Positions 9,155 to 11,063 of a DNA stretch of 39,067 bases are shown here, piece after piece. The notes below the pieces were generated by a model. The model had not been told where the DNA came from, did no database searches, and saw only the letters and a program-made list of their open reading frames with translations. A program made the position numbers and the translations under genes. Every line of letters begins with the position of its first letter. Position 1 is the stretch's first letter. Origin of the DNA: Chloroflexota bacterium (lineage in GTDB: Bacteria; Chloroflexota; Dehalococcoidia; Lucifugimonadales; UBA3495); contig JAPPCX010000085.1 in assembly GCA_028875655.1 (NCBI GenBank), forward strand, positions 73,887 to 112,953, read 5' to 3'.

Positions 9155-9189
9155 TTCGGACTGCACTGTTATCATCGTATGCAGGTGCG

Positions 9190-10005
9190 ATGATGGCCAC
9201 TCCAATCGAATCGACAGCGCTGACAGTGCCTGCTGCTCATGCGAGCGTTATCCGGGAGATAGGGGGCGCCATAGGGCGGGCGTTGGACGCTCAGTGCGTC
9301 ATCCTGTTCGGGTCCCGAGCCAGAGGGGATCACCGCCCTGACAGCGACCTAGACCTGGCGATGATTGCCACGCAAACGGATCTGGACGCGCAGCAGCGAT
9401 TCGACCTCCGAGAGCGGGCTCACTCCGTAGCTGCCGAAGTGGCCGACGGACGTTTCCGTCGCATAGACCTCATCGTATGGACGGAAAGCGAATACCGTAC
9501 CAAGAAGCGCTCCATAAACCACGTGGCCGGGCGGGCCTGGCGGGAAGGAGAAATAATCTACGGAACTCACAAAACGCTGCCGGGAGAGGAAACAGTGTCG
9601 GAGCGGGAAAACGCGCACGAGTTGATGCGGATGTGTCGAGGGCAAGTCAGCGCCCTGATCGGCATGGCCACCGATGTCGAAACATTCAATGAGAATATAT
9701 TCGGATTTCACGCACAACGCGCCACCGAATTGGCTCTCAAAGCGTGGATCAGCCTGGCGGGGAAACGATATGAGCGCACGCACAGCGTTCTCGATCTGCT
9801 GACAATTCTCGTTGACGCCGGCGTAGCCGCCATCCAGCCCTATGCTCATCTCGCCAGCTTGACGCCATACGCCGTGAAGTACGTTTACGAAGAGATCGAA
9901 AACCCGACCATGGACCGGCAATACATTGCCGGTGAGGTCAACACATTGGCTGACTTGGTGGAATCGCTGATACGACAAGCGGAGGGGGACGCGACTGCCG
10001 GCTAG
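9190..10005 (+). CDS. Fused MNT nucleotidyltransferase-HEPN protein
   Basis: A single 271-aa chain joins an N-terminal nucleotidyltransferase (about 15-125) to a C-terminal HEPN domain (about 137-260). The MNT half has GS-X10-DXD at Gly41-Ser42 and Asp53/Asp55, with a third acid at Asp93. The HEPN half has FHAQRATELALKA and RX4H at Arg193 and His198 (RYERTHS), typical of PF05168. In two-gene systems these domains act as AMPylating antitoxin and RNase toxin. A GTG at 9595 (codon 136), preceded by GGGAGAGGA, could also start a free HEPN protein. ATG codons at 9190 and 9193 are both possible starts. It is unrelated in sequence to the separate HEPN/MNT pair at 4.3-5.1 kb. Confidence 0.82.
   Translation: MMATPIESTALTVPAAHASVIREIGGAIGRALDAQCVILFGSRARGDHRPDSDLDLAMIATQTDLDAQQRFDLRERAHSVAAEVADGRFRRIDLIVWTESEYRTKKRSINHVAGRAWREGEIIYGTHKTLPGEETVSERENAHELMRMCRGQVSALIGMATDVETFNENIFGFHAQRATELALKAWISLAGKRYERTHSVLDLLTILVDAGVAAIQPYAHLASLTPYAVKYVYEEIENPTMDRQYIAGEVNTLADLVESLIRQAEGDATAG
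9582..9597 (+). promoter_or_regulatory. Internal ribosome-binding site and GTG start inside the MNT-HEPN gene
   Basis: GGGAGAGGA ends four bases before an in-frame GTG at 9595-9597. Translation from here would give a 136-residue protein holding only the HEPN domain. The site falls exactly at the domain junction. Confidence 0.5.
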
Positions 10006-10073: not shown

Positions 10074-11063
10074 ATGGCAGACGGAATCACTATCCTGGTC
10101 GGCACCGCCGGGCAGGGCGTAATGCGCAGCATCGACAGCGGCCAGTCCTGGCGGCGCGTCGGTATTACACAAGGCATCCACTCGGACGCAGTGGTGCGTT
10201 GTCTGACGCCGATACCCGGCGCGGGGGGCAGCGTGCTCGCCGGCTGTGACCGGGGCATCATCCGCAGCGATGACAACGGCGACACCTGGCGCAGCATCAG
10301 CACACCCATGGACGGGACGGCGGTGTGGGCCATCGCATTTGACCCGTCCAACCCGCTGATCGCCTTTGCGGGCACCGGCACGCCGGACCCGTGCCAGATC
10401 TACCGCTCGAAGGACGGCGGCGCGACGTGGGAATTGCGCCCGGTAGAAGTGGCCGCGGAGTGTCCCGCCGTGGGCGTCCCGCGCGTGACCGGAATCGCCA
10501 TCGACCCCACCAACGGCAACAGCGTGTGGGTGGGCATTGAGGTGGACGGCCTGCGCCACAGCTCCGACGGCGGCGATACTTGGGAAACCGTGCCGCACCA
10601 GGACATTCCCAACCTGGACATCCACAACGTCACCGTGACCTCCGGGCCGCCGCACCGGGTAGTGGTGATGGTCAACGACGACGTGTTCCTGACCGACGAC
10701 GACGGAAGCACCTGGCGCAACCTGGACGTGCGGCAGAACTTCCCGCTAGGATACCCGCGCGGCATCAAGGTGAAAGCCGACGACCCCCAGACTATCTTCA
10801 CGACGTTCGGCGACACTACGCCCGGATCCACCGGAGTGGTGATGCGGTCGGACGACGCCGGCGCGACGTGGAACAGCCTGGACCTGCCGGTGGCCCCGAA
10901 CACGGCGATGTGGGTGGTGAACTCACAGCCGCAGAACCCCGACTTCCTGCTGGCGGGCAGCCGGTACGGCTACCTGTACCAGTCGGACGACGCCGGCAAT
11001 TCCTGGAACAAGTTTGACCGGGAGTTCAGCGAGATCTCATCGGTGATGTGGTTCCCCAACTAA
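10074..11063 (+). CDS. BNR/Asp-box beta-propeller protein
   Basis: Protein of 329 aa built of seven Asp-box (BNR) repeats of the form S-x-D-x-G-x-T/S-W: DSGQSW, DNGDTW, DGGATW, DGGDTW, DDGSTW, DAGATW and DAGNSW. These repeats sit in beta-hairpins of sialidase- and Vps10-like propellers. There is no signal peptide and no sialidase catalytic set that I can identify, so a glycosidase function should not be assumed. An AGGAGG lies just before the ATG, implying strong translation. The gene is monocistronic, ending against a convergent dehydrogenase gene. It resembles the propeller proteins often annotated as glycosyl hydrolase or exo-alpha-sialidase in environmental Chloroflexota. Confidence 0.85.
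   Translation: MADGITILVGTAGQGVMRSIDSGQSWRRVGITQGIHSDAVVRCLTPIPGAGGSVLAGCDRGIIRSDDNGDTWRSISTPMDGTAVWAIAFDPSNPLIAFAGTGTPDPCQIYRSKDGGATWELRPVEVAAECPAVGVPRVTGIAIDPTNGNSVWVGIEVDGLRHSSDGGDTWETVPHQDIPNLDIHNVTVTSGPPHRVVVMVNDDVFLTDDDGSTWRNLDVRQNFPLGYPRGIKVKADDPQTIFTTFGDTTPGSTGVVMRSDDAGATWNSLDLPVAPNTAMWVVNSQPQNPDFLLAGSRYGYLYQSDDAGNSWNKFDREFSEISSVMWFPN

Follow-up and report, generated by a model that had tools for sequence, protein, structure and literature searches.

Does a gene that joins a nucleotidyltransferase (MNT) domain and a HEPN domain in a single frame give one protein or two? The question is raised by a gene in a 39,067-nucleotide stretch of a Chloroflexota genome (contig JAPPCX010000085.1), the whole of which we refer to as the window. 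The initial annotation had read this gene as a fusion of antitoxin and toxin of the HepT/MntA type, with an internal GTG at the domain junction from which free HEPN RNase could be translated, so that internal initiation might set the ratio of toxin to antitoxin. Its first element, the fusion itself, was borne out. Positions 9190-10005 of the forward strand form one open frame of 271 codons with an MNT half and a PF05168-type HEPN half, and the gene product is a single-chain nucleotidyltransferase-HEPN protein. The features discussed below are collected in Table 1.

Table 1 Features of the MNT-HEPN gene and its domain junction, in window coordinates.
Feature	Position	Strand	Basis
MNT-HEPN fusion gene (271 aa)	9190..10005	+	Single frame; Pfam PF18765/PF01909 and PF05168; syntenic orthologues 66% identical in 3 other genomes
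MNT nucleotidyltransferase domain, residues 12-126	9223..9567	+	AlphaFold2 model; fold matches 8xeo, 1no5 and 7bxo
Active-site motif G41 S42 x10 D53 x D55	9310..9354	+	Invariant in 81/81 fused homologues and in alignment A1
Gly120 codon, GGA in the window gene	9547..9549	+	Gly in 80/81; GGA in 52/81
Codon 123, candidate internal start of the family	9556..9558	+	ATC in the window gene, hence absent there; ATG/GTG/TTG in 71/81
Interdomain linker, residues 127-138	9568..9603	+	AlphaFold2: lower-confidence loop between strand 121-125 and helix 139-161
SD-like GGGAGAGGA ahead of the internal GTG	9582..9590	+	Predicted anti-SD energy -7.4 kcal/mol; CCGGGGGAGGAG in 3 orthologues, -10.4
In-frame GTG, codon 136, candidate start of a 136-aa HEPN-only product	9595..9597	+	GTG in 4/4 orthologues
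HEPN domain of PF05168 type, residues 139-270	9604..9999	+	Pfam; fold matches; R-x4-6-H absent
Conserved HEPN residues E180-x3-K184 and H198	9727..9783	+	E180 in 78/81, K184 in 80/81, H198 in 81/81; H198 a possible alternative active-site histidine

Both domains were recognized by Pfam above the cut-off, with Polbeta (PF18765) at residues 35-99 (E 1.8e-9) and HEPN (PF05168) at residues 169-242 (E 1.4e-7); PF01909 was also matched in the MNT half. The AlphaFold2 model of the complete chain has a mean pLDDT of 90 and consists of an MNT fold to about residue 126, a linker at residues 127-138 and a HEPN bundle at residues 139-270. Thus, a chain that began at residue 136 would comprise one whole HEPN domain. 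The GSx10DxD motif of the MNT half is intact. Across 81 fused homologues (this alignment excludes four family members that did not pass a strict motif filter), the residues G41, S42, S52, D53, D55, H198 and Y233 are invariant. The nucleotidyltransferase half is probably active. PADLOC matches, mainly to the PDC-S09 and PDC-M05A models, fell within residues 16-116, in the MNT part.

The assignment to the HepT/MntA type held for the MNT half, with its GSx10DxD motif, but failed for the HEPN half. We rejected a HepT/DUF86 identity for the latter because Pfam gives PF05168 and not PF01934, and because R-x4-6-H is absent. As no profile placed the RX4HXY columns, the search for the motif relied solely on position, at the end of helix 3; on this basis the canonical R-x4-6-H is not found there in the window protein, and the family has 8/81 chance matches. 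HHalign of the HEPN half against the HepT-like/DUF86 (PF01934) set returned no alignment. The closest folds to the HEPN half are 4nqf, 1ufb, 2hsb (AF0298), 1o3u and the sacsin HEPN domain (Z 12.5-13.8). Since the domain is of the PF05168 type and does not have the canonical R-x4-6-H, the release of a free HEPN RNase, as had been proposed, is unsupported. PMC3710099, which catalogues PF05168 fusions to MNT, describes MNT-fused HEPN domains as typically devoid of the RNase residues and likely to be substrate-binding or regulatory. In AF0298-like proteins, according to the same text, the lost motif is preceded on its N-terminal side by an alternative histidine. This description is matched by H198, and HEPN RNase activity may therefore be conceivable. 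Superposition of the whole chain gave a match to ANT4''/kanamycin nucleotidyltransferase (Z ~11.7 over 218 residues; for 6p01, Z 11.7 over 218 residues with an rmsd of 4.5). By analogy with kanamycin and aminoglycoside nucleotidyltransferases, the HEPN half is most likely a substrate-binding or partner domain.

Three other genomes of the window's genus, among them the one titled SAR202 cluster bacterium bin87, each carry an orthologue of the window gene at ~66% identity. The window gene looks stable and vertically inherited, because the same neighbours, an MFS transporter gene upstream and a BNR-repeat gene downstream, are present at 4/4 loci. The protein of this downstream BNR/sortilin-like gene (window 10074-11063), which follows the MNT-HEPN gene in all four genomes, is ~90% identical across them, compared with 66% for MNT-HEPN. 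Directly upstream of the MNT-HEPN gene, at window positions 9167-9175, lies an extended -10-like element, TGTTATCAT, for which the orthologues have TGCTATTAT or TGCTATCAT. This suggests that the gene has its own promoter and a short leader.

The in-frame GTG at 9595 (codon 136) is present as described, behind an SD-like run and within the modelled linker, and comparison with homologues favoured it as far as the orthologues are concerned. V136 is encoded by GTG in all four genes, and the purine-rich SD-like site is kept in all four. In 4/4 orthologues the internal site has stronger predicted SD pairing than the main start. For the window gene, anti-SD energies are -7.4 kcal/mol (GTG136) as against -1.9 and -3.8 (the two ATGs that could serve as main start); for the three other orthologues they are -10.4 (internal site) as against -5.8 to -5.9 (main start). 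When the protein was held fixed and its codons were resampled, an equal or better start site at codon 136 arose with a probability of 0.13 for the window gene and of 0.05, 0.03 and 0.04 for its orthologues, four orthologous sequences that are not independent. The site thus exceeds chance modestly, not strikingly. Comparison of local folding with synonymous resamples showed no opening of the mRNA at codon 136 (delta -1.9, z 0.00), and a synonymous-divergence scan of the four orthologues did not single out codons 129-148. Codon 136 is not a conserved start column among the 81 aligned members of the paralogue clade. Overall, the sequence evidence for an internal start in the window gene is weak, and we regard use of GTG136 as possible but somewhat doubtful.

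A different picture emerged from the sister clade of ~80 fused paralogues in SAR202-type Chloroflexota, in which the candidate start is codon 123, where the MNT fold ends, 13 codons upstream of codon 136. Fused relatives are numerous in the window's own genus and in genera related to it. Up to 13 family matches occur in a single genome (13, 10 and 9 in genomes G004, G009 and G010, respectively), and the expansion is strong in one SAR202-type genus. Tandem arrays of two or three copies are found, as at G054:C1:941814-944179 and G007:C1:925427-927095, and the window's own genome holds three fused MNT-HEPN copies. Codon 123 is a start codon in 71/81 members, comprising 62 ATG, 8 GTG (8/8 of the valines) and 1 TTG. 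Three or four codons ahead of it, at Gly120, the alignment of 81 fused homologues has its most codon-biased column of 316 (z 11.5). GGA is still used at this column in 26/39 representatives of less than 60% identity to one another. In control genes (174 ORFs from the window and from ten 20-kb stretches of related genomes), GGA makes up 14% of all glycine codons, 10% of those in the context [DEQYH]G[IV] and 9% of those placed 3 or 4 codons before internal ATGs. GGT, although equally rare, occupies column 120 in 13 members against 52 for GGA. The spacing from Gly120 to codon 123 is 6 or 9 bases, owing to one inserted residue in some members; in those with the extra residue (L051, L054, L056, L058, L059, L061, L028, L050, L071, L084 and L088) both the GGA and the ATG are kept. 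Predicted SD pairing at site 123 is -5.2, compared with -2.5 at the internal ATGs of control genes. Among the members that have no start, 8/21 likewise use GGA at codon 120. Codon 120 did not stand out in a synonymous-divergence scan over 34 independent pairs, where 8 changes were counted and 12.8 expected; the lowest window of that scan, codons 127-133, is no deeper than the active-site window at 36-42 and is not taken as proof.

The same junction is distinguished at the level of mRNA folding. In local 60-nt windows compared with synonymous resamples, the family shows one peak of unstructured mRNA, at codons 119-131, with nothing comparable elsewhere in the gene. The effect is +2.8 kcal/mol at +4 codons (t 10) in the 71 start-bearing members, about zero in the 10 start-less members and negative in 12 distant fusions, while internal ATGs of control genes have a mean folding delta of -1.2 kcal/mol. 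Sequences with and without the start differ in opening by a Mann-Whitney test (p 5e-4, n=96), in a set of mutually related paralogues from which a tree-based test could draw only 4 independent pairs. The opening, the GGA bias and the start codon at 123 are features of a translation-initiation region. They act at the nucleotide level, and conservation of the protein therefore does not explain them. The three together point to two products from the sister-clade genes. On sequence grounds, this clade has strong support for internal initiation at the domain junction, and we think it quite probable that codon 123 is used there. Internal initiation at the junction, as first suggested for the window gene, thus found nucleotide-level support in its relatives at codon 123, but no folding signature at codon 136 in the gene for which it had been put forward.

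Where could such a start have come from? MNT and HEPN are usually separate genes in other Chloroflexota. In these split relatives the MNT protein ends in ..REGxVLYxAA. This end is overlapped by the ATG of the HEPN gene (..TATGA..TGA), whose ribosome site is found inside MNT codons 118-120. Because of this overlap, the internal start of the fused clade is plausibly the old HEPN gene start brought into frame. In the phylogenetic tree, the window group falls together with most of the distant fusions and with L012 and L034 on one side of the starred branch, all of them without a start at codon 123, and the main family falls on the other side. The window gene therefore lies outside the codon-123 clade. 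We also considered a shift of the start from 123 to 136 in the window lineage, and rejected it because the tree groups the window gene with distant fusions that have no start at 123.

All finds of the codon-123 clade come from a single order of a single phylum. Among 400 genomes from across the phylum there were only a few distant fusions, none with the start. In another Chloroflexota family, locus L130 (G396:C5:57990-59563) is a tandem pair of distant fused MNT-HEPN genes, likewise with no internal start. A tblastn search of plasmids gave no match, and matches in viral contigs were mostly confined to the MNT part. The neighbourhoods of five paralogue loci are mixed, with no constant partner. 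At locus L197 (G025:C1:2574000-2590999), a codon-123 paralogue has Mrr/ResIII and a type I specificity gene next to it, and at locus L196 (G004:C1:12000-28999) a weak IS1-like transposase match and a chaperonin occur close to two paralogues. The surroundings of the paralogues look more mobile than those of the window gene.

For the window gene itself, there is about an even chance that the GTG and the SD-like run before it are a coincidence of the linker, in which case only the full-length protein would be made. The conserved peptide LPGEE-x-VSE (GGN GAR GAR .. GTG) could yield both as a by-product, and the per-gene probabilities of 0.03-0.13 given the protein, the closed mRNA, the ordinary synonymous divergence and the absence of a conserved start at codon 136 in the paralogues all agree with this. 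Speaking against it, 4/4 genes keep the GTG exactly at the linker; three of them have a strong SD before it, and in each case the SD is better than that of the main start. Another doubt concerns the sister clade, whose junction GGA and open mRNA might be left over from the ribosome site of the split genes, or mark a pause in translation while a domain folds, rather than a start in use. The HEPN ribosome site of the split relatives does occupy the same codons, and GGA is a rare glycine codon. However, paralogues at ~30% identity should be synonymously saturated, so a relic should have decayed; rarity alone would have favoured GGT equally; and codon 123 is kept as ATG or GTG, with mRNA opening that tracks the presence of the start codon. 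We consider a relic or a pause improbable.

Two further explanations concern what the protein does. It could be a small-molecule nucleotidyltransferase of the aminoglycoside-adenylyltransferase build, with a HEPN domain that binds the substrate and no important second product. The whole-chain match to ANT4''/KNTase/AadA folds, the invariant nucleotidyltransferase motif beside the lost HEPN RNase motif, and the many paralogues, which would suit diverse substrates, are in line with this. We nevertheless judge it unlikely, as the ANT sequence models are all far below their cut-offs (23 bits vs 340) and the codon-123 signals of the sister clade would be left unexplained. The arrangement suggested in the initial annotation, a single-chain toxin-antitoxin system in which the MNT half neutralizes the HEPN RNase in cis and internal initiation frees the toxin, draws on the type VII systems formed by MNT-HEPN pairs (PMC7641770, PMC11586414), on E180-x3-K184 and the invariant H198, which could form an AF0298-like alternative active site, and on the one paralogue, in G025, that lies near restriction-modification genes. 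It appears very improbable. The canonical R-x4-6-H is absent, fused HEPN domains are typically inactive according to PMC3710099, and the window locus keeps its MFS transporter and BNR-repeat neighbours in four genomes and is not an island.

Taken together, we favour with some confidence an explanation in which an MNT gene and a downstream PF05168-type HEPN gene, overlapping as in the split relatives, became fused into one frame. In the sister clade, selection would have kept a second ribosome-loading site at the junction, consisting of GGA placed 6 or 9 bases before an in-frame ATG or GTG at codon 123, in locally opened mRNA. Probably, then, a HEPN-only chain would be made from these genes beside the full chain. 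This second product could pair with or regulate the full chain, and by analogy with RpnL/RpnS and Cas11b it may bind it; it might be a toxin, an antitoxin, a subunit or a target of AMPylation. GTG136 and its good SD may also give the window gene a HEPN-only product, at a level that could be low. We are evenly divided over a broader proposal, that the expanded SAR202-type family encodes two proteins per gene, with the HEPN-only chain paired with or modified by the full chain as an intragenic toxin-antitoxin or enzyme-regulator system, and that the window gene solves the same problem by way of GTG136. If the favoured explanation is true, fusion did not abolish the second (HEPN) product, a subunit may be hidden behind the annotation 'one fused protein', and a second toxin-antitoxin-related superfamily would join the class of genes within genes found for Rpn.

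The closest described relatives are the MNT-HEPN-T (PF05168) fusions of Anantharaman et al. 2013 (PMC3710099), which have the same domain pair and the same HEPN family; they also share the loss of the RNase motif in fused forms, the Ex3K residues and the alternative histidine. The accessible part of that paper makes no mention of an internal start, of the SAR202-type Chloroflexota expansion or of junction codon selection. The type VII HepT/MntA systems (PMC7641770, PMC11586414) likewise place MNT first, with GSx10DxD and a HEPN partner, whose toxicity is neutralized by AMPylation. However, they consist of two adjacent genes, whereas the window gene encodes one chain whose PF05168 HEPN domain does not have HepT's RX4HXY, and the NCBIfam MntA model scores 44.6 bits against the window protein, below its cut-off of 60. 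Kanamycin and aminoglycoside nucleotidyltransferases (1kny, 6p01, 4cs6) are also single chains with the nucleotidyltransferase followed by a helical domain. They match the whole chain in fold (Z 9-12) but not as a sequence family, the best ANT model reaching 23.1 bits against a cut-off of 340. EzeT (PMC4826407) and CapRel (PMC9712102) unite a toxin and its antitoxin within a single polypeptide, as the window gene product would if it had a toxin role, which is a possibility; they are other enzymes, and no internal start is known to belong to their described mechanism. For the proposed second product, the nearest parallels are RpnL/RpnS and Cas11b. RpnL/RpnS (PMC10327210) also derive from one gene, as a full-length protein and a C-terminal domain translated from an internal start that has a ribosome site to itself, but they are built from Rpn nuclease domains and their short product was found experimentally to be an antitoxin. 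Cas11b is made from the cas8b gene (PMC11899642) by an internal in-frame start that yields a C-terminal subunit, as we propose here for the HEPN-only chain, although in an unrelated protein, a subunit of CRISPR Cascade.
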